DNA from: Gemmatimonadaceae bacterium
Lineage (GTDB): Bacteria > Gemmatimonadota > Gemmatimonadetes > Gemmatimonadales > Gemmatimonadaceae
DNA: 64,000 nt
Direction: 5' to 3'
NCBI GenBank assembly: GCA_035533755.1
Contig: DATLTC010000054.1
Coordinates: 1-64,000 of the forward strand
Within the stretch, counting starts at the first letter, position 1. Every line of letters begins with the position of its first letter. This document shows positions 12,195-39,095 of this stretch, piece after piece. Below the pieces are notes generated by a model, which searched no databases, had not been told where the DNA came from, and was given only the letters and a program-made list of their open reading frames with translations. The translations under genes and the position numbers were made by a program.

Positions 12195-14879
12195 TCAGTG
12201 GGTCGTCGAATCCGCGCGAAGCCCGCGGCGCGCTTCCGCCCACCAGTTGTGGACGACGACCAGACGGGGATTGTCGCCCTTGAGCACGAGCAGGGTCTTG
12301 CCGTCGGGCGACACGTCGTAATTGGCGTGGGGCGAGACGGCCGGCAGATAGTCGTCGTCCATGAACGTCGTGCGCGACGTCACCCGGAAAGGCCGGGTTG
12401 CCGCGATCGCGGCCGCCACGAAGCGGCCGTTGCTCCGATAGAACAGGCGCCGGCCGTCGCGCGCCCACACCGGCTCCGTCCCGCCGGTGCTCGAGATCTG
12501 GATCCGCGGGCCCGGTCCGGGAAAGGGCTGCACCACGACCTGCGCGGTGCCCGACTCGTCGGTCACGAACGCCACCCAGTGCCCGTCGGGCGAGACGCGA
12601 GCCATGAACTCCTGGAACCGCGTGCCGGCGATCGACCTGAGCGTCGTGTCGCCGCTCAGCATCCGGTATCCGACGTCGCCGCCCGTCGTATCCACCTGGA
12701 ACACGATGGCGCGCGCGTCGGGCGTCATGACCGCCTCGTAATAGGCGGCCGTGGGACTGGCCAGGAGCACGGTGGCCGGCGCGCTCTCATCGATCGGCTG
12801 CCACCAGATGGCGGAGCGCGCTCCGCGGTCGGAGCGATACATCACCCGCGTACCGTCGGCCGACCACTCCGGCCGTTCGTTGACCGAGCCGCCGCTGGAG
12901 AGACGCCGCAGGCCGCGAGTAGCAAAATCATATATCCAGATGTCGCTCGTCGCGCCGGACGTGATCGACAGCGCCAGCCGCTTGCCGTCGGGCGAGTATC
13001 GCGGAAACCCGTAGCCCCGGACTTCCGGGAGCACCGGCGTCTCGCCGTCGGCGTTGGCGAGCACCACTTGGGATTTCGCGCCCCCGGTGGCATAGACGAG
13101 CGTTCCGGCGTTCGAGAGCGCGGCCTGGGCGCCGGCGCGATTCCCGGTCGCCACGTCGCCCACCGCCGGCACCGCCGGGCCCGTCGCGGAGCCCGAGGCG
13201 ACATCGAACGGCGCCACGACCAGACTTCCCGTGGTGTTGGCATAAACCAACGAACCATCCATGGCGCCGAGCACGCTCGTGGCCGGCACGTCGAGCCGGC
13301 GCGCCCGGCCGGTAGAGAGCGTCAGCATCCCGACCCGCACGGCTTCGAGCCCTCCGGAGCCCCAACTGGAGTACGCCACGTGATCGCCATCCGCGATCGC
13401 CGTCGGGAAGTACTGGCCCTCCTCGCCTCCCGCGGTGTCGAGCGCCGCGACTGCCGGCTTCGCGCCGCCCGCGGCGGGGAACGAGACCAGGTGTCCGGTG
13501 ATGCTGACGACGATCGTGCCGTCGCGAGTCCAGGTGCCCCCGACCATGTTGGCGATTTCGGCGATGGGCTGCGGGGCACCACCGCGCACATTCACCTTCA
13601 ACAGCCGCCCCGCCACCCAGAACGCGATCCACTGTCCGTCCGGCGAGAAGAACGGCTGGACCCCGCCTTCCGTGCCCGGGATCGGGGAGGCCGCCAATTC
13701 GTCCAACCGGCGGATGTACAGCCGCGCGACGCCGTCGGCGCCGATTCCCGAAATGACGATCGTGGAACCGTCCGGCGAGATCGCGACCCCCATCCCCCCA
13801 CTCGTTCCCACGGCGCTGCGAATCATCGGCGTGACGCCTTGGGGCAGATCCACCGCGAACCGTTCCACCGTCGCCTCCGGCGCGCGGCGCGCAGCGATCC
13901 ACATCCGGGCGGCGAACGCAACGGCCGCGATGGCGATCACGACGCTGCCGAGCACGAGCGGATGGCGGAGCGAGGCACGCCATCCACTGGGCGAGCCCGC
14001 ATGGCCTGCGCCGCGCCCGGCTGCGCCGAGCGACGCCGCCGGCGCGGCCGGCGCGGCGAGCGCATCCGCGAATGCCTGCGCCGTGGGGAACCGGTCGGCG
14101 GGCAGCTTCTCCAGCGCCCTGTGCACGGCATACGCCACCGGCTCGGGCGTGCTCTTGCGCAGCATCGTCACGGGCTCGGGCTCGGCGCTCATCACCTTGG
14201 CCACCACCGCCTGCACGGTGGACCCCGTGAACGGCGGATCGCCGGTGAGCATCTCGTACAGCACGGCGCCCAGCGCGTAGACGTCGCTTCGGGCGTCGAT
14301 CTGCTTCTCGCCCATCGCCTGCTCGGGGCTCATGTACTGCGGCGTGCCCAGGCTGAGCCCCGTCTGGGTCATCCGCGCGCCGGCCGCGCTCTGGATCGCC
14401 AGCGCGATGCCGAAGTCGGCGACGGTCGCGCGGCCGTCGTGCAACAGGATGTTCTCGGGCTTGACGTCGCGGTGGATCACGCCGTGGCGGTGCGCGTAGT
14501 CGAGCGCGCTGGCCACCTCGCAGGTGATGCGCACCGCGTCGGCGATGGGGAGCGGCTTCTCGCGATCCAGCCGGTCGCGCAGCGACTCGCCCTCGACGTA
14601 CGGCATCACGTAGAACAGCAGGCCGTCCGCCTCGCCCGAATCGTGCAGGGGGAGGATGTGCGGATGCTGCAGATTGGCCGTGGTCTTGATATCGCTCAGG
14701 AAGCGCTGGGCGCCCAGCGCGGCCGCGAGATCCGGATGAAGCACCTTGATCGCGACCTTGCGGTCGTGCTTGAGGTCCTCGGCGAGGTACACCGTGGCCA
14801 TGCCGCCGGCGCCGAGTTCGCGCTCGATGCGGTAGCGGTCGTGCAACGCGTTACGAAGGCTGGCTGCGACGTCGCTCAA
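12195..14879 (-). CDS. Membrane Ser/Thr protein kinase with extracytoplasmic WD40/TolB-like propeller
   Basis: 894 residues from the TTG at 14879, which has GGAG 6 bases upstream and gives the usual short lead-in (LSDVAASLRNALHDRYRIERE); the frame is open to 15017. The kinase domain spans about 15-280: Gly loop GAGGMA, Lys45 (VAIKVL), Asp138 (HRDVKPEN), Asp155 (ADFG), MSPEQ. The alpha-C acid is Asp63 instead of the more common Glu. A single membrane helix follows (about 322-345, VLGSVVIAIAAVAFAARMW). The remaining roughly 540 residues carry repeated SPDG motifs (ISPDGSTI, SPDGQWIAFW, SPDGKRLAL, SPDGHWVAF) of a TolB/Tricorn beta-propeller. It should sense something outside the membrane and phosphorylate cytoplasmic targets. 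Confidence 0.9.
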   Translation of the reverse strand: MSDVAASLRNALHDRYRIERELGAGGMATVYLAEDLKHDRKVAIKVLHPDLAAALGAQRFLSDIKTTANLQHPHILPLHDSGEADGLLFYVMPYVEGESLRDRLDREKPLPIADAVRITCEVASALDYAHRHGVIHRDVKPENILLHDGRATVADFGIALAIQSAAGARMTQTGLSLGTPQYMSPEQAMGEKQIDARSDVYALGAVLYEMLTGDPPFTGSTVQAVVAKVMSAEPEPVTMLRKSTPEPVAYAVHRALEKLPADRFPTAQAFADALAAPAAPAASLGAAGRGAGHAGSPSGWRASLRHPLVLGSVVIAIAAVAFAARMWIAARRAPEATVERFAVDLPQGVTPMIRSAVGTSGGMGVAISPDGSTIVISGIGADGVARLYIRRLDELAASPIPGTEGGVQPFFSPDGQWIAFWVAGRLLKVNVRGGAPQPIAEIANMVGGTWTRDGTIVVSITGHLVSFPAAGGAKPAVAALDTAGGEEGQYFPTAIADGDHVAYSSWGSGGLEAVRVGMLTLSTGRARRLDVPATSVLGAMDGSLVYANTTGSLVVAPFDVASGSATGPAVPAVGDVATGNRAGAQAALSNAGTLVYATGGAKSQVVLANADGETPVLPEVRGYGFPRYSPDGKRLALSITSGATSDIWIYDFATRGLRRLSSGGSVNERPEWSADGTRVMYRSDRGARSAIWWQPIDESAPATVLLASPTAAYYEAVMTPDARAIVFQVDTTGGDVGYRMLSGDTTLRSIAGTRFQEFMARVSPDGHWVAFVTDESGTAQVVVQPFPGPGPRIQISSTGGTEPVWARDGRRLFYRSNGRFVAAAIAATRPFRVTSRTTFMDDDYLPAVSPHANYDVSPDGKTLLVLKGDNPRLVVVHNWWAEARRGLRADSTTH

Positions 14880-20652: not shown

Positions 20653-20660
20653 TAGCTTGG
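20653..20660 (+). promoter_or_regulatory. TAGCTTGG promoter-like element of TPR kinase unit
   Basis: It matches the TAnnTTGG pattern and lies 26 bases before the proposed TTG start at 20687. TTGACT occurs at 20622-20627, but its 25-bp spacing is too long for a normal -35. Confidence 0.4.
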
Positions 20661-20686: not shown

Positions 20687-23002
20687 TTGCGAGTTCCCCC
20701 GGAGGCTGCCGCGTCGCACCCACACGAGGACCTCTTCCAGCGGGCCAGCTCGGCGGTCGAGTCGCGGTACAGGCTCGAGCGCGAGTTGGGGCGTGGGGCG
20801 ACGGCGGCGGTGTTCCTCGCGCGCGATCTGAAGCACGAGCGCCTGGTGGCGCTCAAGGTGCTGCTCCCCGAGTTGGCGGCGTCCCTGGGCACCGATCGCT
20901 TCCTGCGCGAGATCCGGCTCGCGGCGCGGCTGGCGCATCCGCACATCCTGCCGGTGCTCGACTCGGGCACGGCGGGCGAACTGCCGTTCTACGTCATGCC
21001 GTACGTCGAGGGGGAAACGCTGCGCGAGCTGCTGGCGCGGCAGGGATCGCTGGCCATCGACATCGCGGTGAACCTGGCGCGCGACGTGGCCGACGCCCTG
21101 GACTACGCCCACGCGGCGGGGATCGTCCACCGCGACGTGAAGCCCGGCAACATCCTGCTCCTCGGGGGGCACGCGGTGCTGGCGGATTTCGGGATCGCGC
21201 GCGCCATGGTGGCCGCGGCCGGCCAGCACGTGACGGGCGCCGGCATGGCCGTGGGCACGCCGGCGTACATGAGCCCGGAGCAGGCGGCCGGCGACGACGC
21301 GGTGGACGGGCGGAGCGATCAGTACTCCCTGGCGATCGTGGTGTTCGAGGCGCTGGTGGGATATCCCCCGTTCGCGGGCGGGACGACGCAGGCGATGATC
21401 GCGCGACGATTCGTGGAGCGGCCGCCGGCGGTGCGGACGCTGCGCGCCGATGCGTCCGAGGCGCTCGAAGACGCGTTGTCGCGCGCCATGGCGCTCGACC
21501 CGGCGGACCGGTTCGCGGACATTCGCGAGTTCGCCACGGCGCTCACCCCGGGCGGCGAACGCACCGTGCGCGTGAGCCCGCCGACCGCGACCCGCGCCGC
21601 GCCGGTGTCGGCGGTGCCCTCGGTAGCCGTCCTTCCGTTCGCCAACGGGAGCACCGATCCGGAGATGGAGTTCTTCTCCGACGGCATGACGGACGAGATC
21701 GTGGGGTCGTTGAGCCGGCTGCGCAATCTGCGGGTGGCGGCGCGGAGTTCGTCGTACGCCGCCCGGTCGCGCCACGAGGATGCGCGCGCGATCGGCGAGC
21801 GGCTGGGCGTGGGGGCCATTCTCGAGGGGAGCGTGCGCCGGGCCGGCACCCGCGTGCGGGTGAACGCGTTTCTCGTCGACGCCCGGACGGGGTTCCAACT
21901 CTGGTCGGATCAGTACGACCGCGAGATCGACGACGTGTTCGCGATCCAGGAGGAAATCGCCACGCGCATCGTCGAGACGCTGCGCGTGCAGCTGCTGGGC
22001 AACGCGGCGCGCCCGCTCGCGGCGTCCACGACGACCAATGCTGCCGCGTACGACGCCTACCTGCGCGGCCGCTACTTTGCCAATCAGCGGACCGAAGCGG
22101 GGCTGCGCCGTAGCCTCGACCAGTTCCGCAGCGCGATCGAGGCCGATCCCGGGTACGCGTCGGCCTACGCCGGGTTGGCGGAGGCGTTGGCGCTGCTCGG
22201 CCTGTACGGCGTGGTGGCGCCGCGCGAGGCGATGCCGCAGGCGGCGCAGCGGGCGGACGAGGCGCTGCAGCACGACCCGGCGCTCGCCGAAGCATACGTG
22301 ACCCTGGGCATGGTGCGCGCCCTCTACGATTTCGATTGGCCGCGGGCCGAGGACGCGTTCCGGCGAGCGATCGCGCTCAGCCCGCGCTATCCGGCGGCGC
22401 ACCAGCGCTACGCGATCGACTGCCTGGCCCCGCAGCGGCGCTTCGGGGCGGCGATGGCCGAGATCGATCAGGCGTGCCAGTTGGAGCCGCTCTCCCCCGT
22501 GCTCCAGGCGAGCGCCGGGATGATCCGGTATTTCGCGGGCGACCTGGACGCGGCGATCGCGATGGAGCGGGCCGCCGCGGCGAGCGACGGGGGATTCGCG
22601 ATGGCCGAGTTCTTCCTCGGCACGATGGCGCGCGACGCGGGGGACATGCCCACCGCCTACGCGGCGTTCCAGCGCGCGATCGCGCTCACCGGGGGAACGC
22701 CGGAGATGATCGCCGGCCTCGCGCGGGCGCACGCCGGGGCCGGACAACAGGGCGAGGCCGAGCGACTCCGCGCGCAGTTGGCGGATGCGGCGCGCGACCG
22801 GTTCGTGTCGCCCTGCCTGCTGGCGCAGATCGACCTGGCGCTGGGGCGCGTGGACTCGGCGCTCGACGGGCTGGAGCTGGCCATGGAGGTCCGGGACCCC
22901 GAACTGGCGTACCTCGTGGTGCGGCCGGTGTATCGCGAGCTGGCGGGACAGGAGCGGTTCGTCCGCCTCTGTCGCGCGCTCGACCTGCCGTTGATCTCGT
23001 AA
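20687..23002 (+). CDS. Soluble Ser/Thr protein kinase-TolB-like-TPR fusion
   Basis: 771 residues from the TTG at 20687. A GTG at 20591, overlapping the upstream stop as GTGA, would add 32 residues, and no ATG exists near the domain start, so the N-terminus is uncertain. The kinase domain covers about 28-285: Lys57 (VALKVL), Asp150 (HRDVKPGN, with Gly for the usual Glu), Asp167 (ADFG), MSPEQA. A TolB-like/adenylate-cyclase-associated domain spans about 310-440 (SVAVLPFANGS, SDGMTDEIVGSL, GAILEGSVRRAG, LWSDQYDR), then TPR repeats (about 450-770). No membrane helix separates kinase from sensor, unlike the propeller kinase at 12195. It probably controls, or is co-expressed with, the FAD oxidoreductase 21 bases downstream. 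Confidence 0.88.
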   Translation: MRVPPEAAASHPHEDLFQRASSAVESRYRLERELGRGATAAVFLARDLKHERLVALKVLLPELAASLGTDRFLREIRLAARLAHPHILPVLDSGTAGELPFYVMPYVEGETLRELLARQGSLAIDIAVNLARDVADALDYAHAAGIVHRDVKPGNILLLGGHAVLADFGIARAMVAAAGQHVTGAGMAVGTPAYMSPEQAAGDDAVDGRSDQYSLAIVVFEALVGYPPFAGGTTQAMIARRFVERPPAVRTLRADASEALEDALSRAMALDPADRFADIREFATALTPGGERTVRVSPPTATRAAPVSAVPSVAVLPFANGSTDPEMEFFSDGMTDEIVGSLSRLRNLRVAARSSSYAARSRHEDARAIGERLGVGAILEGSVRRAGTRVRVNAFLVDARTGFQLWSDQYDREIDDVFAIQEEIATRIVETLRVQLLGNAARPLAASTTTNAAAYDAYLRGRYFANQRTEAGLRRSLDQFRSAIEADPGYASAYAGLAEALALLGLYGVVAPREAMPQAAQRADEALQHDPALAEAYVTLGMVRALYDFDWPRAEDAFRRAIALSPRYPAAHQRYAIDCLAPQRRFGAAMAEIDQACQLEPLSPVLQASAGMIRYFAGDLDAAIAMERAAAASDGGFAMAEFFLGTMARDAGDMPTAYAAFQRAIALTGGTPEMIAGLARAHAGAGQQGEAERLRAQLADAARDRFVSPCLLAQIDLALGRVDSALDGLELAMEVRDPELAYLVVRPVYRELAGQERFVRLCRALDLPLIS

Positions 23003-23023
23003 CCGCCCACCGCCGAGGGCGCG

Positions 23024-25072
23024 ATGACCACCCAATCGAAGACGAGCGTGGCGGTACTGGGCGGCGGCTGCGGCGCGATGGCCGCGGTGTTCGCGCTCAC
23101 GGCCACCGCCGAACTGCGGGCCCGGTACGACGTGACCGTGTACCAGCTGGGATGGCGGCTGGGAGGCAAGGGAGCGAGCGGGCGCAATGCGCAGGCCGGC
23201 CAGCGTATCGAGGAGCACGGGCTCCACATGTGGCTGGGATTCTACGACGACGCCTTTCGCATGATGCGCGAGTGCTACGCCGAATGGAACGGTCCGGTGC
23301 CGTTCGCGCAGGCGTTCATTCCGCAGCGGCTGATCACGTTGCAGGAGCTGGTGGGCACCGGTCCCGCGGCGCAATGGGAGACCTGGAACGTCCACGTGCC
23401 GGTGCTGCCGGGCGAGCCTGGCGTGGACGGCCCGCCGCTGCTGGTGGAGTTGCTGGACGGACTGTTCGACGCGCTCACCGGCCACTACGCGACGGCGGGT
23501 CTCAGGGACCGCGCGGCGGCCGGGTTCCACGCGCTGACCGCGGCGCGCGCGCATCTGGGCACGATGCACGAGGACCCCTCGCGCCACACGCCCCACGACC
23601 GCCAGCAGCTGTTGGCCCACATCGAGACGGCGCGGGCGAGCGTGGCGGCGGCGGCGCCACTGTCGTCGCTGGGCGACTTCATGCGGCGCGCCGCGTTGCT
23701 GGTCGAACTGGGGCTGGCGATCGCGAAGGGATTCGTGACCGACGTCCTGCCCTACGGCGACGCGGGGTACGACTGCATCAACGACGTCGAGTTCCGCGCC
23801 TGGCTCGAATCGCACGGCGCGAGCCCGGACGTCTCCTTCTCGGCGCCGGTGCGCGCGCTGTACGACCTGGGGTTCGCGTACGCGGCCGGCGTTGCCGACC
23901 GCGACCACGCCCAGGCGGCGGCGGGAGTCGCCCTGCGGGTGATGCTGAGCATCGCGTTCGGGAGCCGCGGCGCCCCGCTCTGGAAGATGTACGCCGGGAT
24001 GGGCGACACGGTGTTCACGCCGTTCCACGAGGTGCTCAAGGCGCGCGGGGTGCGCTTCAAGTTCTTCCACCGCGTGCGGGCGCTCCACCTCTCGCCGTCG
24101 GGCGCGCTCGTGCAGCGGGTGGAGCTGTCGCGCCAGGTGGACGTGCTCGCCGGCGCCGAGGAGTACGACCCGTTCGTGCCGGTGGCGGGGATTCCGGCCT
24201 GGCCATCCGATGCGCTTTGGCCCCAGATCAGGGACGGGCAGGCGGTGAAAGCGCGCCTCGAAGCGGAGGGGATCACGCTCGAGTCGCCGCGGTGCACCGA
24301 GGAGGTGGAGCGCGTCACCCTCGAGATGGGCCGCGACTTCGACCTCGTGCTTCTGGGCATCTCGCTGGGCGGTCTGCCCGACGTGTGCGGGGAGTTGCTG
24401 GACGCGAGCGAGTCGTGGCGGTCGATGGTGGCCAACGTGCCGACGGTGGGAACGCAGGCGTTCCAGGTCTGGCTCAACAAGCCGCTGGCCGAACTCGGCT
24501 GGACGGCGGGGCCCACCGTGATGACGTCGTATGCCGAGCCGTTCGACACGTGGGGCGAGATGTCGCACCTCATCCCGCGCGAGGCCTGGCCGCCGCAGGC
24601 CGGCGTGCAGAGCATCCATTACTTCTGCGGCGCGATGCCCGACCATGCGGCGCCAGCCTCGGCGCTGGGGCCGCTGAGCGCGGCCGAGCTGGACGTGGTG
24701 GTGCGTGACCGCGCGCGCGCGTGGCTGGAGGAGCGTATCGCGCACCTGTGGCCGAGCACGATGGCCGGGGGCACGTTCGACTGGAATCTGCTCGTGGATA
24801 TGAACGCGGGCGTGGGGCCGGCGCGGTTCGACGCGCAGTTCTTCCGGTCGAATCTCGGGTTGACCGAGCGGTACGTGCTCTCGCCGCCGGGCTCGATCCG
24901 GTTCCGGCTGCCGCAGCGCGACGCCGAGTTCGGCAATCTGTTCCTCGCCGGCGACTGGACGCGCACGCTCTACAACTCGGGGTGCGTGGAGGCGGCCGTC
25001 GACTCGGGCCTGCGCGCGGCGGCGGCGATCAACGCCTATCCGTCGTTCCCCACCGCCGCGCCCACGACCTAG
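23024..25072 (+). CDS. FAD/NAD(P)-binding oxidoreductase, amine-oxidase/phytoene-dehydrogenase-like
   Basis: 682 residues; ATG at 23024 with GAGGG 5 bases upstream. The N-terminal dinucleotide-binding motif (VAVLGGGCGAMAA, residues about 9-21) and the C-terminal FAD motif (LFLAGDWTRTLYNSGCVEAA) frame a flavoprotein of the phytoene desaturase/hydroxysqualene dehydroxylase/amine oxidase superfamily. The EEHGLHMWLGFYD motif near 66 and WRLGGKGASGR near 44 are shared with the paralogue at 26052-28301. It is 21 bases after the TPR kinase gene, so probably co-transcribed. The substrate is unknown; the clustering with a decarboxylase-like protein suggests lipid, isoprenoid or polyketide-like chemistry, but that is inference. 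Its TAG overlaps the opposite gene's TAG in a shared CTAG. Confidence 0.85.
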   Translation: MTTQSKTSVAVLGGGCGAMAAVFALTATAELRARYDVTVYQLGWRLGGKGASGRNAQAGQRIEEHGLHMWLGFYDDAFRMMRECYAEWNGPVPFAQAFIPQRLITLQELVGTGPAAQWETWNVHVPVLPGEPGVDGPPLLVELLDGLFDALTGHYATAGLRDRAAAGFHALTAARAHLGTMHEDPSRHTPHDRQQLLAHIETARASVAAAAPLSSLGDFMRRAALLVELGLAIAKGFVTDVLPYGDAGYDCINDVEFRAWLESHGASPDVSFSAPVRALYDLGFAYAAGVADRDHAQAAAGVALRVMLSIAFGSRGAPLWKMYAGMGDTVFTPFHEVLKARGVRFKFFHRVRALHLSPSGALVQRVELSRQVDVLAGAEEYDPFVPVAGIPAWPSDALWPQIRDGQAVKARLEAEGITLESPRCTEEVERVTLEMGRDFDLVLLGISLGGLPDVCGELLDASESWRSMVANVPTVGTQAFQVWLNKPLAELGWTAGPTVMTSYAEPFDTWGEMSHLIPREAWPPQAGVQSIHYFCGAMPDHAAPASALGPLSAAELDVVVRDRARAWLEERIAHLWPSTMAGGTFDWNLLVDMNAGVGPARFDAQFFRSNLGLTERYVLSPPGSIRFRLPQRDAEFGNLFLAGDWTRTLYNSGCVEAAVDSGLRAAAAINAYPSFPTAAPTT

Positions 25073-26040
25073 GTATTGGGCGCGCGCCAGACCTCGGTGC
25101 CGGCGTCGGCGGTGAAGTCGAGCTTGGCCCAGCAGGCGAAGAGCACGGGGATGCCGCCCGTGGTGGGCAGGCCGAGGTCATTGGCGATCTGGTGGCTCGG
25201 AAAGTCGGCGAGGTCGAGCACGTAGTCGCCCGTGAGGAGGCCGCCGCCGTAGATGTGGGTGGGCGTGAACGTGCTCTCGATGATCGCCTGATAGCAGGCC
25301 CGCGTGCTGTCGCGCGCGTCGCGGAACTGCTTGAAATTCACCGACGGGACGGCGCGCGAGGCGAGCATCTTCACCACGTCCACCAGCAACTCCAGCCCGT
25401 GCACCGGGAGCTTGGAGGCGCCCTTGCCCCAGAAGTCGATCAGGAGTTTCCACAGATCCTCGATCTCCTGGAGCGGCCCCAGCGTTCCGTCGCGCCGGAC
25501 GCGGGCCACCGTGCGCATGGTGCCCTGGCTGGCGTTGCTCAGCGGATCGAACACGATGGCGTTGGTGACGAAATCCGCCGGATCGGTGGGCTGCAGCGGC
25601 ATCGTGATGTCGCCGATCTCCTTGCGGAAGCCCCAGATCTCGCGGCCGGTGGCCATGCCCATGGGGCCGCTGATGAACAGGTAGGGAATCCAGAAGGTGA
25701 TGCGATCGGGGCTCGAGCCGTCCGTCGTGCGGGCCAGGAGCGGGATCCAGAATCCGGTCTCGTAGTCGGGCGTGTAGCCGGCCTGTTCGGTCACCGAGAA
25801 GTGGCGCGCGGTGAGCGAGTAGCTGAGCATGACCGACGACCCGATCACGGAGTAGGTGATGGCCCCGCCGTTGGGCTGGTTGAGGAACTTGTCGACGAGG
25901 GCCTGCATGTTGGCCTGGGTGCCTTCGACGAAGAAGGCCATCAGCGTGACGCCGTCGCAGGCCGCCGGCGCCTGCGGCACCTGCAGCCCGTGCCCGAGGT
26001 CGTCGACGTAGAGCGGGTAGGACGAGGGCGAGGAGGACAT
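25069..26040 (-). CDS. Acetoacetate decarboxylase-like (ADC fold) protein
   Basis: 323 residues from the ATG at 26040. The segment about 123-146 (FISGPMGMATGREIWGFRKE) is the conserved core of the acetoacetate decarboxylase fold. Lys140 aligns with the Schiff-base lysine of the enzyme, but the following lysine that tunes its pKa in the clostridial enzyme is Glu141 here and the preceding Pro is Arg139. The chemistry may therefore differ from plain decarboxylation; ADC-fold relatives also do aldol or cyclisation reactions. It starts 11 bases after the stop of the FAD oxidoreductase at 26052, in one transcription unit with the cyclase gene further upstream. Confidence 0.8.
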   Translation of the reverse strand: MSSSPSSYPLYVDDLGHGLQVPQAPAACDGVTLMAFFVEGTQANMQALVDKFLNQPNGGAITYSVIGSSVMLSYSLTARHFSVTEQAGYTPDYETGFWIPLLARTTDGSSPDRITFWIPYLFISGPMGMATGREIWGFRKEIGDITMPLQPTDPADFVTNAIVFDPLSNASQGTMRTVARVRRDGTLGPLQEIEDLWKLLIDFWGKGASKLPVHGLELLVDVVKMLASRAVPSVNFKQFRDARDSTRACYQAIIESTFTPTHIYGGGLLTGDYVLDLADFPSHQIANDLGLPTTGGIPVLFACWAKLDFTADAGTEVWRAPNT

Positions 26041-26051
26041 GGCGGGTTCCG

Positions 26052-28301
26052 TCAGGGTGATTGGAGAAAGTTGAATCCGACGATGGTGGCGGGCTCGCCG
26101 CAGATGGCGCGGGACGCGGCGGCGCCGGACATGACCGCGCCCTCGACGCAGGTGACGTTCATGCCCGTTCGCGTCCAGGTGCCGGCGAGGTACAGGTTGA
26201 GGAATCCCGAATCGCCCTGGCGCAATCGATACTTGGTGGACCCGTGCCAGGACGCCACGCAGCATTCGGAAGGATCGACGTTGGCGCGCATCCATTGCGT
26301 GGCCACGCGGGCCGGCCCCTGGGCGTTGGCCGCCGTGTGCAGGAGGGCCCAGTCGAGCGTGGCCTGCGTGCCGGGCTCGAGCGCCGACGGCCAGATGGTG
26401 GCGGTGTAGGTACTGAGCCATGTCCGGGCGATGTCGGCGACCGCCTCGGTGGCGAGGCGCGGCACGTCGTGGTCGCGCGACGGACGGCGGAAGAGGTCGG
26501 TATTGAACGGGCCGCAGAAGTACTGGATGGACCGGGGGCCGGCGGCGAGGGGCCAGCTCTCCTTGTCCAGCACCTGCGACATGTCGGCCCACACGTCCAT
26601 CGGCTCGGCGGATCCGTCCATCGCCGGCCTGGGGTGGGCCCAGCCCAGGCCCTGGAGATCGCGGTCCATCCACAGCTGCACGCCGAACGTGGGGATGAGG
26701 CCCAGCTGCTCGGTCATCGCCCGGAACTGGGGGCTGGCGGCGATCAACTCCTCGCACATCGAGGGATCCTCGTCATTCAACTTCTGGAATGCGCCGAGGT
26801 TGATGCCGAGGATGACCTTGTCGAAGTCGGTCCCGAGTTCGAGCGATACGTCGCCGGCCTTGGTGTCGCACCAGCGGGACTCGAGCGTGAGGCCGGCGGC
26901 GTCGAGCTGGGCCTTGATCGCGGGCCCGTTGCGGATCTGTTCCCAGAACGGTTCCGACGGCCAGCAGGGCAGCCCCTTGACCGTGAACATCGGGTCGTAC
27001 GACGCGCCGGCCAGGTCCACCTGGCGATCGAGATGGACGCGCTGGATCCACCGCTTGTTGGGCGAGAGTTCGAGGTGCCTGACCTTGTGGAAGAACTCGA
27101 AGTGGACGCCGCGCGCCTTCAACACCTGGTAGAGCGGCCCGATCACCGTCTCTCCCATGCCGGCCTGCATCTCGTACAGCACGGCGCCCTTGTACGTGGC
27201 GAAGATGCGGATGAGCGAGCGGATGGCGGCGCCGGCCGCGAAGTCGGGCTGCAGGCCCTTGGCCAGGTCGGTGCGATAGGCGAACGCCAGATCGTACAGG
27301 GCGCGGAGCTCCGGGGCATCGAACAGCCGCGGCACCGACTTGATCGTCGGGCGGGCGCCGTTCTCGATCAACCAATCGAGGTACTCGTATTCGTCGAGGC
27401 CATTGAGATCCCAGGTGGTGGTGAACCCGTACCGGGGATTGAGCAACCCACGCAACGTGGCCGTGGCGGTATCGAGAATCATGCCGAGCAGCGCCCCTTC
27501 GCCCGTCGGGTCGACGAGCCGCCGCACGACGTCGTGCGCGCCCTCCAGGAGCAGGAGGGTGGCCTCGGCCAGCGCGTGGTCGAACGCGCCCTCCATCGAC
27601 TCGGCGGAGACGGAGGTGAGGTGGCTGCGCTCCAGCAGATGGTGCAGACGGCCCGACGAGTGGCGCAGGGCAAGTCCCGGGATCGCTCCGGCCACGGCGA
27701 TCGTCTTGCGGATGGCATGGCCGAGTCCCTTGCGCGTGCGCAGGTCGCTGACGATGCTGGCCAGCAGGCGGCCGACGATCGCCAGGGCCGCGCGGACCAT
27801 GTGCCCCCGCCCGATCTCGTGCTCGATGTCGGCGAGGAGCTGCTTGACGATCTCGGCGAGCACGCCCAGCGCCTCGGTGACGGCGCCCCACGGCGTGAGC
27901 AGGAGTTGGCCGTCGCCCGGCGTGTCGGCGTTGGTGGGCCACTCGGCGAGGAAGTACGTCTGGCCGTCGCCCAGTCCGAGCGGCGTGATCGATTCCGGCT
28001 TGAACGCATCCGTCCACGCCTGGAAGGGATTGTCCGGCTCCTTGGCCTGCTCGGCGTAGCATTCGCGCATCATCGCGAACGCGTTCTCGTAGAAACCGAG
28101 CCAGATGTGGAGGCCGTGCTCCTCCACGCGATCATGCTCGTCGCGGTTGCGGCCGCTGGCCCCCTGCCCTCCCAGACGCCAGCCCATCTGGTAGATGGTC
28201 ACGTCGTGCTTGGCCCGCAGTTCGGGCGTGCGCGTGAGTTGATATGCCGCGCTGAGCGAGCCGGCTCCGCCTCCGAGAATTGCGATGCGCGTCTTGGGCA
28301 T
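26052..28301 (-). CDS. FAD/NAD(P)-binding oxidoreductase, paralogue of the 23024-25072 enzyme
   Basis: 749 residues from the ATG at 28301. The dinucleotide motif is at residues about 6-19 (IAILGGGAGSLSAAY), followed by WRLGGQGASGR and EEHGLHIWLGFYENAFAMMRE, nearly the same as in the plus-strand paralogue. Further shared blocks are YDL-AYR/YAA, KMYAGMGDTVF/EMQAGMGETVI, and LKARGV-F-FFH-VR-L-LSP. The C-terminal FAD motif reads LYLAGTWTRTGMNVTCVEGA: the usual acid of AGD/AGE is Thr. It also carries an insertion around 130-260 relative to the paralogue. It lies 39 bases downstream of the cyclase gene and 11 upstream of the ADC-like gene. The substrate is unknown. Confidence 0.85.
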   Translation of the reverse strand: MPKTRIAILGGGAGSLSAAYQLTRTPELRAKHDVTIYQMGWRLGGQGASGRNRDEHDRVEEHGLHIWLGFYENAFAMMRECYAEQAKEPDNPFQAWTDAFKPESITPLGLGDGQTYFLAEWPTNADTPGDGQLLLTPWGAVTEALGVLAEIVKQLLADIEHEIGRGHMVRAALAIVGRLLASIVSDLRTRKGLGHAIRKTIAVAGAIPGLALRHSSGRLHHLLERSHLTSVSAESMEGAFDHALAEATLLLLEGAHDVVRRLVDPTGEGALLGMILDTATATLRGLLNPRYGFTTTWDLNGLDEYEYLDWLIENGARPTIKSVPRLFDAPELRALYDLAFAYRTDLAKGLQPDFAAGAAIRSLIRIFATYKGAVLYEMQAGMGETVIGPLYQVLKARGVHFEFFHKVRHLELSPNKRWIQRVHLDRQVDLAGASYDPMFTVKGLPCWPSEPFWEQIRNGPAIKAQLDAAGLTLESRWCDTKAGDVSLELGTDFDKVILGINLGAFQKLNDEDPSMCEELIAASPQFRAMTEQLGLIPTFGVQLWMDRDLQGLGWAHPRPAMDGSAEPMDVWADMSQVLDKESWPLAAGPRSIQYFCGPFNTDLFRRPSRDHDVPRLATEAVADIARTWLSTYTATIWPSALEPGTQATLDWALLHTAANAQGPARVATQWMRANVDPSECCVASWHGSTKYRLRQGDSGFLNLYLAGTWTRTGMNVTCVEGAVMSGAAASRAICGEPATIVGFNFLQSP

Positions 28302-28340
28302 GGCGGCGGGTTGCGAAGAAGGTGAGCGGGGAACGGACGA

Positions 28341-31300
28341 TCAGACCGGTCCGGACGACGGCACGGATTGTATCGCAGCAGCGGCGCGTGCCGCGTCGTG
28401 TTCGGCGCCCAGGGAGGCGAGCCTCGCCGCGGCGCCGTCGAGTTGTCGCCGCTGGGCGGCGGGCGGCGCGGACAGATGCAGCGCCGACTCGAGCTCCAGA
28501 AGGCCATAATCGTACGGCATCCGCAGGCGTTCGGCCAGTTGGAGCCCCGTGTCCCACAGGCGCCGGGCGCGGCGCGCATGTCCGGCCTGCCAGGCGTACT
28601 GGCCCCGATGGAGGGCGGCCCGCGGGCCGGCCACGGGGAGCATCCAGGCGAACTGCCGCAGGACCATGCACGCCTGGCGGGCGCGACGGCGCGCCTCGGC
28701 GGCGGCCGGTCCACCGGCGCGCGCGCGCCAGTCGGCGAGGAAGACCTCGCACATGCCGGCCACGCTCCAGAGGGAGTAGTACAGATTGGGCGGGGTGGCG
28801 CGGAACTGCGCGAGCGCGGTGGTGGCGTGCGTGAGCGCCAGCTCCCGATCGTCGTCGCGCAGGGCGGCGACGGCCAGCAACCCGTGGCCCACCGTCTCCT
28901 CGGTGCGGTGCGCGTTGTACTTGAGCTGGGCGCGGTAATCCGCGACGAGGCCGGGATCCACGCGGCCGCGCGTGGCGAGCAGTGTGGCGCACTGGCCGGC
29001 GCGCGCCCAGAGCCGCGATTGGAGCGCGCCGTACCGCGCCGACGCGAACGTCTCGTCGAAGCAGCGCCGGGCGTCGGCGAAGCGGCCGGTGGAGAGGTTG
29101 GTGAATCCACGGCCGGCGCGACACGCTTCCCAGAGGAACCGGGCGCCCTGGCGTCCGAACAGCTCGCACCCCCAATCGGTGGTACGCTCGACCAGCTCCC
29201 AGTCGCCCACGTTGCTGGCGTAGTTGAGCTGGATGCGCGCCAGGTCGCGCACGTTGGGTTCGTCGCGAGCCAGCGATTGGGCGCGCGCGACGTACCAGTG
29301 GGCGGCCGACGTCAGGCGGGCCATCCCGGCGAGAATGGCGAGCGTGGCGTATCCGTCGATCATGCCCGCGCCGTCGGCGCCCCGCTCGGCGAGGTTGGTG
29401 CATCGCAACGAGGCGTACACCGGCGAGACCTGCTCGTTGTTGAACCAGCCGGCCTCGGCGAATCGTTTGGTAGCGAGCGCCGCCGTGGCGAGCGCGGCGC
29501 GCTCGGCGGGCGGCGCGGCGCCGACGAACCGCGCCGGCCGGAGGCGGTGCAGGATCTGCGCGGCCAACTCGCGCCATATGCCGGCCGTCATGCCCACCGT
29601 TCCCGACGACAGCGGGTAGCCGAGCAGGGCGAGCGCCGTGCGCAGGTGCGTGCCGGCCACGTTGTACTCCGACAGATGGATGGCGGCTTCGCCGAGCCAG
29701 AATTCCCACTGCGCCCGGCGTTGCGCGTCGAGGGGTACGTCGTTGGCCGCGGCCAGCTCCTTGGCCCGCTCCAGGAAGCTGCGCGCTTCGCGGTTGGCAA
29801 AACTCTGCACCGCCTGCTCGGCCGCGCGCTCGAGATACGGAATGGCGCGCGCCGGCTCGCCGGCGCGATCCCAGTGGTGCGCGAGCAGCGGAGCCAACGC
29901 GGCCAGTTCGTGGGCGCGGTGCCGCTCGTACCACTCGGCCACGGCGCGGTGGAGTTGCCGGCGTTGCGCGAACAGCAGGGCGCCGTACGCCACGTCCTGC
30001 ACGATGGCGTGCCGGAACAGATACGCCAGATGCGGGTCGGGGGACTCGACGCGCGTGAGATCGACGTCCTCCAGGTGCTCCAGCCCGCCGCGCAGGCGCG
30101 GGAGGTCGGTGGGCACGGGGTACACGTCGTGCAGCACGTCGTGCTCGAACACGCGGCCGATGATACTGGCTGACTTGAGCATCAACTGCTCGTCGAGCGG
30201 CAGGCGGTCGATGCGCGCCGAGACCACGCCGTGCACGGTGTCCGGGAACTCGGCGCCGCGCAGCCCCGCCTCGCCGGCGGCCAGGCGGCACACGCCGTCG
30301 TCGATCGCGACGAGGCCGGCTTCGGCGAGGGCGCGCGCGAGTTCCTCGCTGTAGAACGGATGCCCCTCGGCGCGCCCGAGAATGAACGCGACGAGCTCCT
30401 GCGGGACGTCGGGAACGTGCAGGCAGTGAGCGAGCAGCGCGGGCAGCTCGGCTTCGCCCAAGGGCCCGAGCGGCAGATGCACGCCGTTCGCTGTGTCCAT
30501 GAGGCGCCGGACGCCGGTGGCGGTGGGCTCCTCCAGCGGGCGGCTCGAGAGCACGACGAGCAGTCGCGGCACGCGGGCCGCCACCGCCGCGGCCAGGTCG
30601 AGCGACGCCGAGTCGAGCCAGTGGACGTCGTCGAGGATGAGCACCAGCGGCGCCTCGCGGGCCACCGACGCGACCAGGGCCACGGCCAGATCCTTGATCG
30701 CGTCGGCGCGCACCTCGTGGCGCATGGCCTCGGTGAACGGGGTTTCCGGCAGCTGCAGCGGCAGGATGGCGTTCAGGACGGGGGCGCGCGCGGCCAGATC
30801 GGGCTGGTCGGCGAGCGGCGCGAGCAACGCCTCACGCAGTTCGGCGCCCTTCAGCGATGTGCCGCGGCCCGCCAGGCGCGCGAGCAGATCGCGCCATGCG
30901 AAGTAGGCGGTGGTGCGCTCCACCGCGTCGCCCGCGCCGGCCACCACCTGCACGGCCGCGCCGCGCGCGCGGTCGGCGAGATCGGCGACGAGGTACGACT
31001 TGCCGATCCCCGCCTCCCCCTCGATCCAGACGAGGCCGCCGTCCCCGCGCCCCAGCGCGTCGACGCGCGCGGCAAGTGCGGCGCGCTCCGTCGCGCGACC
31101 GGCGATGAACTGGCCGCCGGCGCGCAGCGGCACGCTCGCCCGGCCGCGTGGCCGATGGACGCTCACCGGTTGCGCAAATCCCTTGACGCGAATGGGGTCG
31201 AGGGTGTCGAACGCGAAGCGGCCGCCGCTCGCCTGGCGCGTGGCGTCGTCCACGAGCACGCCGTGGGCCGCCGCCTTCATCAGCCGCGCGGCCAGGTTGA

Positions 31301-32405
31301 TGGTGGTGCCGACGATCGTGTACTGGCGTCGCGCCACGCTCCCGTACGCGCCGCAGAAGGTGCGGCCGGTGGCGACGCCGATCGTGGGCGTGAGGCCGAG
31401 CGCCGCCAACTCCTGGGAGAGAACGACCGCCGATTCGACGGCGCGGGTCGCCGCATTCTCCGCGCCCCCGGGCGGGAGACCGAACGCGCCGATGATGCTC
31501 AGGCCCTTGTCGTCCATCAACGCCTGGTACACCGCGCCGGCGCGCCGCTGCATCTCGCGTTGCGTGGTCTCCACCGCCCGGTGCAACATCGCGGGCGCCG
31601 CGGCCGGATCGTCGGGCAACCCGAGCAGATTGATGAACACCACCGACACGCGACGGAACTCGGCGCCCCACGCGCCATGGCCGGCGTCCACGCGATCACG
31701 CACCACCGGCGGCACGTAGGGGCGCAGCAGATCGGGCGAGACGTGGGGGAGCCGCAGCGCACGTGGAGGCCCGCCGCCGGGCACGCCGTCCACGCGCCGC
31801 CACCCGCCGGGAAGCGCGGCGCCCGGTGCGGCAGCCGTCAGGAATCGCGACGCATCCGCGGACAGGACCACGTGACCCGGTTCGGCCACGCCGCTCGCGT
31901 CGCCCGCCTGGCGGATGGGATCGCCGACGAGCATCGCCGTCCACTGGTCGTCGATGCCGCCGAGTTCGACGATGCCGAGGGCGCCGGCGCCGATGCCGGC
32001 GCGCAGGCCCAGCGTGACGTCGGGCGCCGGCGCGAAATCATGCAGGCGGTCGCGGATGGCGAGCGCGCACTGCGTGGCCGCGATGGTGGCGGCCTCGAGC
32101 GTCGGCGCGTCGTCGGCGTGCCAGAGGGCCAGCGCCGCATCGCCCGCGAACAGTTGGACGTCGCCGCCATGCGCGACGACGAGATCGGTGAGCTGGCCGA
32201 AGTACGCGTTGAGGATCTCCGAGAGGCGCTCGGCGCCCTCGGCGCCTGCTTGCGCGAGGCGTTCGGCGAGGCTGCTGAACCCGGCGATGTCCACGAACAG
32301 CGCCGACCCGAGAAACTGATCGTGACTCGGCCCCGTGGGCGGTCCCCGTCGAGCCGCCACGCGTCGCTGCTGGATGGCGGAGACGTACGAGGCGAGGGAT
32401 TCCAT
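28341..32405 (-). CDS. Soluble adenylyl cyclase-like protein: two class III cyclase domains, AAA-type NTPase, TPR-like C-terminus
   Basis: 1354 residues. The order C1 (about 30-220), C2 (about 250-415), P-loop NTPase (GEAGIGKS 463-470, Walker B LILDDVHW near 600) and an alpha-helical TPR-like tail (about 800-1354) is that of mammalian soluble adenylyl cyclase. C1 has both metal aspartates, D39 (LFVDIAGFS) and D89 (FAGDAALALW). C2 lacks the first (VVFINL) but has K300, T363, N370 and R374 with the same T-7-N-4-R spacing as human sAC T405/N412/R416, so one active site at the C1/C2 interface and ATP as substrate are expected. The position of the human bicarbonate-binding Lys95 is Leu85 here. It leads the FAD/ADC-like unit and could supply its cAMP-linked or ATP-linked control. 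Confidence 0.9.
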   Translation of the reverse strand: MESLASYVSAIQQRRVAARRGPPTGPSHDQFLGSALFVDIAGFSSLAERLAQAGAEGAERLSEILNAYFGQLTDLVVAHGGDVQLFAGDAALALWHADDAPTLEAATIAATQCALAIRDRLHDFAPAPDVTLGLRAGIGAGALGIVELGGIDDQWTAMLVGDPIRQAGDASGVAEPGHVVLSADASRFLTAAAPGAALPGGWRRVDGVPGGGPPRALRLPHVSPDLLRPYVPPVVRDRVDAGHGAWGAEFRRVSVVFINLLGLPDDPAAAPAMLHRAVETTQREMQRRAGAVYQALMDDKGLSIIGAFGLPPGGAENAATRAVESAVVLSQELAALGLTPTIGVATGRTFCGAYGSVARRQYTIVGTTINLAARLMKAAAHGVLVDDATRQASGGRFAFDTLDPIRVKGFAQPVSVHRPRGRASVPLRAGGQFIAGRATERAALAARVDALGRGDGGLVWIEGEAGIGKSYLVADLADRARGAAVQVVAGAGDAVERTTAYFAWRDLLARLAGRGTSLKGAELREALLAPLADQPDLAARAPVLNAILPLQLPETPFTEAMRHEVRADAIKDLAVALVASVAREAPLVLILDDVHWLDSASLDLAAAVAARVPRLLVVLSSRPLEEPTATGVRRLMDTANGVHLPLGPLGEAELPALLAHCLHVPDVPQELVAFILGRAEGHPFYSEELARALAEAGLVAIDDGVCRLAAGEAGLRGAEFPDTVHGVVSARIDRLPLDEQLMLKSASIIGRVFEHDVLHDVYPVPTDLPRLRGGLEHLEDVDLTRVESPDPHLAYLFRHAIVQDVAYGALLFAQRRQLHRAVAEWYERHRAHELAALAPLLAHHWDRAGEPARAIPYLERAAEQAVQSFANREARSFLERAKELAAANDVPLDAQRRAQWEFWLGEAAIHLSEYNVAGTHLRTALALLGYPLSSGTVGMTAGIWRELAAQILHRLRPARFVGAAPPAERAALATAALATKRFAEAGWFNNEQVSPVYASLRCTNLAERGADGAGMIDGYATLAILAGMARLTSAAHWYVARAQSLARDEPNVRDLARIQLNYASNVGDWELVERTTDWGCELFGRQGARFLWEACRAGRGFTNLSTGRFADARRCFDETFASARYGALQSRLWARAGQCATLLATRGRVDPGLVADYRAQLKYNAHRTEETVGHGLLAVAALRDDDRELALTHATTALAQFRATPPNLYYSLWSVAGMCEVFLADWRARAGGPAAAEARRRARQACMVLRQFAWMLPVAGPRAALHRGQYAWQAGHARRARRLWDTGLQLAERLRMPYDYGLLELESALHLSAPPAAQRRQLDGAAARLASLGAEHDAARAAAAIQSVPSSGPV

Positions 32406-32877: not shown

Positions 32878-35649
32878 CTATTCCAGCGCCTCGCGCACCT
32901 TCCGCAGCAGCGACTCGGACGTGTACGGCTTCTGGAGCAGCGACTCGCGGCCCTCCATCACGCCGTGGCGGATGATCGCGTCGTCGGAGTACCCGGAGGC
33001 GAAGACGATCCGGATGCCGGGCCACCGCTGGCGCACCCGCTCGGCGAGTTCGCGGCCGCTCATGTTCGGCATCACGACGTCGGTGATCATGAGATCCACC
33101 TTGCCGCCCAACTCCTCGAGCACGCGCAGGGCCTCGGGCCCGTTCGCGCCCTCGATCACCCGATAGCCGCGCGTGGCGAGAATGCGCGTGGCCATGCGGC
33201 GCACGCCCTCGTCGTCCTCCACCACGAGCACCGTCTCGGCGCCGTGCTCGGCGCGCAGGGGCGCAGGGGCGCCCATGGCCGCGACCGGCTGCTCCACCAC
33301 CGGCAGCGTGATGTGGAAGACCGTGCCCTTGCCCGGCTCGCTCTCGACATCGATCGTTCCGCCGCTCTGCGCCACGATGCCGTGCACCACGGCCAACCCC
33401 AGCCCGGTGCCGCGGCCCGCGGCCTTGGTCGTGAAAAAGGGCTCGAACAGGCGCCCCTTCACGTCGGCCGCCATCCCGGTGCCGGTGTCCGACACGGACA
33501 GGCGGACGCGGGGGGGCGCGGCGTCCACGGCCGGGTCCGCGGCAAGCGCGCGCGTGGTGATGGCCAGGCGTCCTCCTTCGGGCATGGCATCGCGCGCGTT
33601 GACCGCGAGGTTGAGGATCACCTGCGAGAGCTGGCCCGGATCCACGCGCACGGGCCCGGCGGACGGATCCAGCACCACGCTCAGCTCGATGTCCTCCCCC
33701 AACAGCCGCTGGAACATCTGCTCCGCCTCGGTGACGATGCCGTTGACGTCGAGCACCTGGGGCGCGATGACCTGGCGGCGGCTGAACGCGAGCAGCTGCC
33801 GGGTGAGCGATCCGGCACGCACCGCGGCGAGCTGGATCTCGGCGGCCAGCGGCCGGAGGGAATCGCCGGTTTCGAGCGCCGCGAGCAGCAGTTCGGTGTT
33901 GCCGCCGATCACGGTGAGCAGATTGTTGAAGTCGTGGGCCACGCCGCCGGCGAGGATGCCGATGGACTCGAGCTTCTGCGTTTGCTGAAGCTGGGCTTCG
34001 AGATGGCGGCGCTCGGTGACGTCCTCGGCGACTCCGGCAATGCGGAACACCGTGCCGGCTGCATCGCGCACCGGGAACCCGCGGTCCCGGATCCAGCGCG
34101 TGGCCCCGTCGGGCCGCAGGATGCGGTACTCCTCGTCGTAGGTGCCCGCCACCTGCTTCTCGTACGTGGCCCGGACCACACGCTCGCGGTCGTCGGGATG
34201 AATGGCGTCGATCCAGTCCTTGGACGAGGCATACAGACTCTCGCAGCTGCGTCCCCAGATCGTTTCGTACCCCGGGCTGATGTACACCATCTGATCGTGC
34301 GCGGGATCGGCGAGCCAGAACACCTCGCGAATGTTCTCGGCGAGCTGCCGGAACCGTGCCTCGCTCTCGCGCAGCGACTCGTCCACGCGGCGCGTCTCGG
34401 CCCGCTGGCGCAGCGTTGCGATCCCGAACTCGAGATCTTCGGCCAGCTCCTTGAGCAGCGCGATCTCGCCGTCGTCGAACGCGTCGGCGTCGGCGGCGTA
34501 CACCGTGAGCGCCCCCAGCGGCGCCCCGTCGACCATGATCGGCAGGGCCAGCGCCGATCCGATGCCGTGGCGCTGGGCGGCCTCGCGCCAGGGCACGAAG
34601 GCAGGATCACCGGCGATGTCGTGGCTGGATTGCGGCCGTCCCGAGCGCACCGCCCGGCCAATCGGACCGCGGCCACGGTCGCTGTCGTCCCAGCGCACCA
34701 TGATCCCCTCGAGGTAGGCGATGGCCGGACCGGCCCTCGCCACCGGGCGCACCGTCCTCGCCTCATCGTGCTCGGCGATGCCCACCCACGCCAGTATGTA
34801 GCCGCCTACGGAGACCACGATCTCGCAGATGCTGTCGAGCAGCGCCGCCTCATCGGCGGCGCGGATCATCGCCTGGTTGCACTCGCTGATCGTGCGCTGC
34901 GCCCGGTTCGTGCGGCGCAGCTCCCGCTCGATGGCCTTCCGCGCCGTGATGTCCTGCACGGTACCGGCGAGACGCGGGTGGCTCTCGGTGGGAACCAGGG
35001 ACTCGCTGCGCGCCTCGATCCAACGCACCGTGCCGTCGCGCAACACGATGCGATATTCCACGACGACGGGTCGGGGGTTGTCGCTCGCTTCGCGGAAGAT
35101 CCGGCCCACGCGATCGCGATCGTCCTCGTGCATGCGCCGCAGCGTGTGCTCGAACGCCGGGATCGGGCCGCTCGGATCGATTTCCAGGATCCGGAACAGC
35201 TCCGGCGACCACCAGCGCTCGCCGGTGCGCGAATCGTATTCCCAACTGCCCATCCGCGCGATCGCGGACGCCGTGTTCAGGTGCGATTCGCTGCGCGCCA
35301 GCGCCTCGGCGAGCGCGGCGTCCGAGGGATCCCCGATGGTGGCGGCGAAGCCCGCCGGTCGGTGCCGCGCATCGTACAGGCACGACAGCGCCAGGGGTGC
35401 GTCGAAGCGGGACCCGTCAGCGCGCGCCCACGACCGATTCTCGCGCGCCTGGCCGTCGGCCACGGCCCGGGCCATGATCGGCGGCGCGTCCTCGAGCCGC
35501 CCGTCGTCCGGCAGGTGCAGCCCCGCCCACGGCCGGCCGACGACCGATCCGGCAGGGCGCCCGAACAGTCGCTCAGCGGCCGGGCTCCACCCCGTCACGA
35601 CGCCGGATGCGTCGAGGGTGAACGTCGCGGCGGCGCCTTCATGCGTCAT
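32878..35649 (-). CDS. Multi-sensor hybrid histidine kinase (PAS-PAS-GAF-PAS-HK-REC)
   Basis: 923 residues from the ATG at 35649. PAS domains are at about 5-110, 125-245 and 415-545, and a GAF domain at about 265-410 (SVGGYILAWVGIAE, ALALPIMVDGAPLGALTVY). The third PAS has a PAC-type tail (EYRILRPDGATRWIRDRG). The kinase core is of the NtrB-like type with phospho-His572 (GGVAHDFNNLLT), N-box NLAVNARDAM, DTGTGM and GTGLGLAVVHG. The C-terminal receiver has D857 (LMITDVVMPNMSG). No membrane helix is present, so it integrates several cytoplasmic cues. No separate regulator with a DNA-binding domain is adjacent. Palindromic repeats flank it on both sides. Confidence 0.92.
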   Translation of the reverse strand: MTHEGAAATFTLDASGVVTGWSPAAERLFGRPAGSVVGRPWAGLHLPDDGRLEDAPPIMARAVADGQARENRSWARADGSRFDAPLALSCLYDARHRPAGFAATIGDPSDAALAEALARSESHLNTASAIARMGSWEYDSRTGERWWSPELFRILEIDPSGPIPAFEHTLRRMHEDDRDRVGRIFREASDNPRPVVVEYRIVLRDGTVRWIEARSESLVPTESHPRLAGTVQDITARKAIERELRRTNRAQRTISECNQAMIRAADEAALLDSICEIVVSVGGYILAWVGIAEHDEARTVRPVARAGPAIAYLEGIMVRWDDSDRGRGPIGRAVRSGRPQSSHDIAGDPAFVPWREAAQRHGIGSALALPIMVDGAPLGALTVYAADADAFDDGEIALLKELAEDLEFGIATLRQRAETRRVDESLRESEARFRQLAENIREVFWLADPAHDQMVYISPGYETIWGRSCESLYASSKDWIDAIHPDDRERVVRATYEKQVAGTYDEEYRILRPDGATRWIRDRGFPVRDAAGTVFRIAGVAEDVTERRHLEAQLQQTQKLESIGILAGGVAHDFNNLLTVIGGNTELLLAALETGDSLRPLAAEIQLAAVRAGSLTRQLLAFSRRQVIAPQVLDVNGIVTEAEQMFQRLLGEDIELSVVLDPSAGPVRVDPGQLSQVILNLAVNARDAMPEGGRLAITTRALAADPAVDAAPPRVRLSVSDTGTGMAADVKGRLFEPFFTTKAAGRGTGLGLAVVHGIVAQSGGTIDVESEPGKGTVFHITLPVVEQPVAAMGAPAPLRAEHGAETVLVVEDDEGVRRMATRILATRGYRVIEGANGPEALRVLEELGGKVDLMITDVVMPNMSGRELAERVRQRWPGIRIVFASGYSDDAIIRHGVMEGRESLLQKPYTSESLLRKVREALE

Positions 35650-39007: not shown

Positions 39008-39095
39008 GGTAGGGTGGTAGGACGGTAGGGGGGTAGGACGGTAGACTGCGTGACGCAGTCATCCGTCCTACGCCCCTACACCCCTACCGTCCTAC
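39008..39095. repeat. Palindromic GGTAGG-type repeat, copy 3, between convergent genes
   Basis: The left arm is GGTAGGGTGGTAGGACGG followed by GGGGTAGGACGGTAG-type units, the centre is ACTGCGTGACGCAGT (39045-39059), and the right arm is CCGTCCTACGCCCCTACACC plus CCTACCGTCCTAC. It sits between the stops of ppsR (39001) and the ABC exporter (39092), slightly overlapping the latter, where it could end both transcripts. Confidence 0.9.

Follow-up and report, generated by a model that had tools for sequence, protein, structure and literature searches.

Soluble adenylyl cyclase (ADCY10) joins a class III C1-C2 catalytic pair to an ATPase and helical repeats, and the TOMM kinase/cyclase fusion proteins (TIGR03903) likewise attach a cyclase/kinase head to AAA and repeat regions. 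The hydroxysqualene dehydroxylase HpnE and the plant and cyanobacterial phytoene and zeta-carotene desaturases carry an N-terminal Rossmann motif for flavin adenine dinucleotide (FAD), LGGK, the block E.GLHI..G.Y..n and a C-terminal LAGD.T. The acetoacetate decarboxylase superfamily (acetoacetate decarboxylase, the Sbi_00515 aldolase-dehydratase, MppR and Swit_4259) is recognised by its fold and a Schiff-base lysine position. Proteins resembling all of these lie together at positions 20687 to 32405 of a 64,000-nucleotide stretch from a Gemmatimonadaceae bacterium (assembly GCA_035533755.1, contig DATLTC010000054.1), here called the window. We refer to them as KIN (Ser/Thr kinase), FAD1 and FAD2 (sister FAD oxidoreductases), ADC (acetoacetate-decarboxylase fold) and CYC (soluble-adenylyl-cyclase type). 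We have found that two sister FADs, an ADC-fold enzyme and very large signalling proteins make up a cassette that is rare and recurs in at least four bacterial phyla. No paper describing it was found in the open-access literature searched, and it may be described elsewhere.

Our survey of the window's phylum covered 395 genomes. The FAD family is present in 10 of them and the ADC family in 7, all 7 lying within the 10 (hypergeometric p = 4e-13), and in 7/7 the two genes share one neighbourhood, being adjacent or within ~12 kb of each other. Of the three remaining FAD genomes, the G274 locus is cut off by a contig end, while in G008 and G370 FAD is immediately followed by two DUF2071 genes; one of two DUF2071 proteins tested gave a sub-threshold match to PF06314 (E = 3e-6), and alignment of DUF2071 to the ADC profile by hhalign was not significant. 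When 84,980 species genomes were scanned with ADC as bait, two were recovered, one from Acidobacteriota and one from Hyphomicrobiales, and each also holds the FAD gene. In the Acidobacteriota set 5 of 297 genomes carry the FAD family, as do 3 of 289 in the Alphaproteobacteria set; plasmids of Azospirillum, Qingshengfaniella, Catenovulum and Rufibacter have it too. ADC adjoins FAD in Azospirillum and Catenovulum, and the two are fused in G050 and in Qingshengfaniella, where the ADC match is weak. A signalling protein with an AAA_16 domain lies within ~10 kb of FAD in 16 of the 18 FAD-bearing genomes; 0.74 would be expected (P = 5e-22) under a simple model of uniform position, the genomes holding 0–16 AAA_16 proteins each. 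The co-occurrence of FAD, ADC and regulator on which the original prediction turned is strongly borne out, and neither of the outcomes that could have overturned it was seen: the neighbourhood is conserved and the two FADs belong to one family. In one locus from the Acidobacteriota set (G588; L067:6970-13285) three FAD-family genes stand in tandem ahead of a FadL/TodX channel.

The convergent arrangement is itself conserved. In the window, FAD1 (23024..25072, plus strand, 682 residues) meets ADC (25069..26040, minus strand, 323 residues), their stop codons having CTAG (25069..25072) in common, and behind ADC come FAD2 (26052..28301, minus strand, 749 residues) and then CYC. The gaps are 21 bases between KIN and FAD1, 11 between FAD2 and ADC and 39 between CYC and FAD2; the five open reading frames, these gaps and the shared CTAG are all present as first described. 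The order FAD1 facing ADC-FAD2 and CYC recurs in G050, which belongs to a different family within the class and in which ADC and FAD2 are fused. On plasmid p3 of Azospirillum brasilense Sp7 (NZ_CP033315.1, ~360.8–367.5 kb), FAD1 and a FadL-type channel are convergent with ADC and FAD2, beyond which lies a giant kinase-AAA-GAF-histidine kinase protein, and the layout in A. argentinense is identical. In the FAD tree the six FAD1 and FAD2 sequences of the window, G050 and Azospirillum fall together (support 99); within them the FAD1s form one clade (support 95 in the Shimodaira–Hasegawa-like approximate likelihood ratio test, SH-aLRT) and the FAD2s another (100). Because each paralogue forms its own clade, the duplication predates the separation of these copies and is ancient. 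The convergent FADs thus make up an old unit common to the window, G050 and Azospirillum, whose copies have been inherited or transferred as a whole.

The link to the regulators is seen beyond simple proximity. A large AAA-type regulator also adjoins FAD in Azospirillum, Qingshengfaniella (followed there by a Crp/Fnr regulator) and Rufibacter, in each case on a plasmid. In a tree of AAA proteins the cluster-linked regulators group together, requiring 6 changes against 13.6 in shuffles (0/500), and CYC is one of five regulators, from G000, G050, G008, G370 and G274, that form a cluster-only clade (support 99). Relatives of the TolB-TPR half of KIN are found near the cluster in the same five genomes, with the full kinase in G008. 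The window's genome contains ~22 other kinase matches and the chance probability of one within 10 kb is 14%, so the kinase link is the weaker of the two. In G050 no kinase precedes FAD1, the contig ending at that point. The mirrored layout had suggested one signal input for each FAD paralogue. The conserved AAA regulator upholds the signalling part of this idea but separate inputs are not upheld, since in Azospirillum a single large regulator accompanies both FADs and the kinase association is weaker; many related loci have a single FAD with a single regulator. That the enzymes form a joint unit with a dedicated signalling partner is nevertheless well supported.

FAD1 and FAD2 align from end to end at 39% identity (E = 3e-146), confirming the paralogy proposed at the outset. 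Both match the Pfam families NAD_binding_8 and Amino_oxidase above cut-off, and the Rossmann FAD-binding and C-terminal flavin motifs of the amine-oxidase superfamily are kept across 16 sequences. They share with HpnE and the desaturases all four motifs given above, and a profile of 16 FAD relatives matched plant phytoene desaturase alone in the PDB. Against the HpnE model (TIGR03467) they score 65.5 and 59.3 bits where the curated cut-off is 283. Judged by sequence, the two appear to be an undescribed branch of the amine-oxidase superfamily near HpnE and the CrtP/phytoene-desaturase type.

ADC scores 29.9 bits against PF06314, marginally above the cut-off of 29.8. A Foldseek search with a low-confidence model returned only structures of the acetoacetate decarboxylase family in ranks 1–19, and the ADC profile finds solved acetoacetate decarboxylases. 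In our alignment (A3) G132, R133, G137 and K140 are invariant, and K140 aligns with the lysine of GFPKK in 3bgt/3c8w; K140 therefore sits at the Schiff-base lysine position. One related protein (L033:10007-12886) has tandem duplicated ADC domains, the second with GLPMV in place of G(W/F)PK at the lysine position.

In CYC (28341..32405, minus strand, 1354 residues) the C1 and C2 domains each align with human soluble adenylyl cyclase (E = 8e-35) and are followed by an AAA_16 ATPase and a long helical repeat region; Pfam identifies the AAA_16 and cyclase domains. The tandem C1-C2 arrangement is present; in C2 the K, T, N and R positions are retained, as are both metal aspartates, and we take these to be the catalytic residues. 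K95 and R176, residues of the bicarbonate site of soluble adenylyl cyclase, align with L and G in CYC, and activation by bicarbonate is thus not expected. KIN (20687..23002, plus strand, 771 residues) is a cytoplasmic Ser/Thr protein kinase (Pkinase, 9e-42) with a TolB_N-like middle and C-terminal TPR repeats. It starts with the TTG at 20687, a further in-frame TTG lying at 20657. A full-length relative, L030_6, adjoins the FAD cluster of G008 (48% identity, 611 bits), and in it TolB_N is seen just under cut-off. A second giant kinase-type protein of the window (12195-14846, minus strand) is 55% identical to KIN over the aligned part, and some 20 more are encoded in the genome. A PAS-GAF hybrid histidine kinase (32878-35649, minus strand) lies just upstream of the CYC gene on the same strand. 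About 7 kb from CYC is an ABC exporter-type protein that carries a cyclic-nucleotide-binding domain at its C terminus (39095-41215, minus strand), a possible candidate effector for cyclic AMP (cAMP). CRP-type palindromes number 2 in the window against 12 expected, giving no support for CRP-type regulation.

The genes that accompany related copies bear on the substrate. Polyprenyl-diphosphate synthase is present in four loci of three phyla (G143, G257, G395 and G396), Caroten_synth in the G050 locus, a weak Lycopene_cyc match in that of G334 and an MPAB/Lcp (rubber-oxygenase-type) domain in that of G682. FadL/TodX channels and TonB receptors also occur, TonB in most loci of the window's phylum. 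In three of the four polyprenyl synthase loci a phasin-like protein lies between FAD and that synthase, and in the fourth it lies between a tandem ADC and TonB; these proteins have no database match, and the likeness to phasins was read by eye. These accessory genes, together with the finding that phytoene/squalene synthase (PF00494) is never near FAD in the 18 genomes and was not found in 4 of the 18 hosts, suggest an oily, probably isoprenoid substrate other than ordinary phytoene or squalene. Genes for polyprenyl synthase, outer-membrane proteins and carotenoids are all absent from the window's own cluster, and so the argument is drawn from its relatives. An ADC-family protein, all0736, is present in the cyanoglobule proteome of Anabaena, an isoprenoid-rich lipid droplet (PMC12923008), which is no more than a suggestive lead. 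A classical carotenoid or hopanoid cluster was considered and rejected on the PF00494 result. The phasin-like proteins (L026:10276-10935, L027:5178-5858, L071:5276-5929 and L068:14001-14744), from three phyla and near FAD, polyprenyl synthase and ADC, end in a small beta-type domain. Another family, ~270–320 residues long and with no Pfam or NCBIfam match, has members next to FAD or cyclase (L030:2640-3455, L031:2376-3284 and L038:14195-15148) in Rufibacter, of the Bacteroidota, as well as in two genomes from the phylum of the window.

The reading that we prefer, and to which we give about even chances, is that the window locus is one example of a metabolic cassette that is rare, mobile and spread across phyla and that acts under signal control on a hydrophobic, probably isoprenoid, molecule. 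Its core would be the long FAD oxidoreductase, which may oxidise or desaturate that molecule, and the ADC-fold protein, which could in principle form a Schiff base with a carbonyl and would act on a carbonyl product of the FAD step. The duplicated FADs of the window might catalyse two successive or parallel steps. Control of the core would lie with an AAA/TPR signalling protein of very large size, the output head of which is in different copies a soluble-adenylyl-cyclase-type cyclase, a Ser/Thr kinase or a kinase with histidine kinase or cyclase; in the window cAMP from CYC, perhaps with phosphorylation by KIN, would either reflect the pathway's state or determine it. In other copies the phasin-like protein might coat lipid inclusions. 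More tentatively, and at rather less than even chances, we suggest an undescribed pathway spanning at least four phyla in which a special isoprenoid would be made or turned over, perhaps with storage in inclusions coated by phasins and exchange across the outer membrane, with the new FAD branch and its ADC-fold partner wired to STAND-like cyclase, kinase or histidine-kinase sensors with exchangeable heads.

Several observations weigh against the preferred reading. The PF00494 result speaks against ordinary carotene or squalene; the HpnE and carotene-desaturase models match FAD1 and FAD2 far under their cut-offs (59–66 bits and below), and AlphaFold models with a predicted local distance difference test (pLDDT) of 44 and 36 are too poor for structural claims on FAD. 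DUF2071 stands in place of ADC in G008 and G370, the ADC-fold partner is a distant relative in G419, G588 and G606 (p = 0.001 against ADC, suggestive, with the lysine motif aligned) and in Rufibacter and G895 none was found close to FAD. The AAA regulators were recruited several times on their tree. Finally, the window's cluster lacks the accessory genes, and as these differ between copies the substrate may differ too.

A cassette for catabolism or scavenging would use FadL or TonB to import a hydrophobic isoprenoid or other lipid, FAD and the ADC-fold protein to degrade it and the AAA protein to sense it. The FadL/TodX channels that lie after FAD1, ahead of ADC, in Azospirillum and behind the three FADs of G588, the TonB receptors, the MPAB/Lcp-type oxygenase of G682 and a thiolase in G606 all fit such a role, but the polyprenyl-diphosphate synthase of four loci points to biosynthesis and the window's cluster has no outer-membrane protein; we think it unlikely, though the most serious of the rivals. 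It is improbable that FAD and ADC are the sole unit and the signalling proteins chance or generic neighbours in genomes rich in giant kinases and cyclases. The kinase count of the window's genome and the repeated recruitment of regulators would be expected on this account, yet with only 0–16 AAA_16 proteins per genome one is near FAD in 16 of 18, the AAA regulator accompanies FAD on the Azospirillum, Qingshengfaniella and Rufibacter plasmids and CYC belongs to the cluster-only clade. For the AAA regulator chance is accordingly disfavoured. The STAND-like AAA-TPR architecture, the sporadic distribution and the similarity of the CYC C1 domain to PycC, the Pycsar cyclase, recall an anti-phage or other conflict system in which cyclase or kinase sensors drive enzyme effectors. 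That similarity is confined to C1, however, and the other four proteins have no match among the Pycsar models listed; FAD and ADC match no defence model, the cluster has no cyclic-nucleotide-gated effector and its relatives are linked to isoprenoid and outer-membrane genes, so that a conflict role is very improbable indeed.

The cassette of FAD, ADC-fold protein and giant regulator is a well-defined, testable unit, and it is present in Azospirillum brasilense Sp7, a strain amenable to laboratory work. Few targets are known for bacterial soluble-adenylyl-cyclase-type cyclases and AAA/TPR signalling giants, and the cassette ties both to a specific set of enzymes. CYC resembles ADCY10 in architecture and in its retained catalytic positions and differs in lacking the bicarbonate-site K95 and R176. 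The plan of the TOMM kinase/cyclase proteins is shared, but the match to TIGR03903 reaches 178 bits against a cut-off of 706. FAD1 and FAD2 differ from HpnE and the desaturases in having ~250–300 more residues, most of which separate the FAD motif from the rest of the protein, and their family has its own invariant GWRxGGxxAxGR signature and is linked to ADC rather than to phytoene or squalene synthase. The window-type ADC agrees with the acetoacetate decarboxylase superfamily in fold match and lysine position, but is marginal by Pfam score, and in P0003 the second lysine of KK is replaced by E; in contrast to that superfamily, the cassette ADC has an additional conserved NFKQFRD..ACYQAI block and is often tandem-duplicated or fused to FAD.

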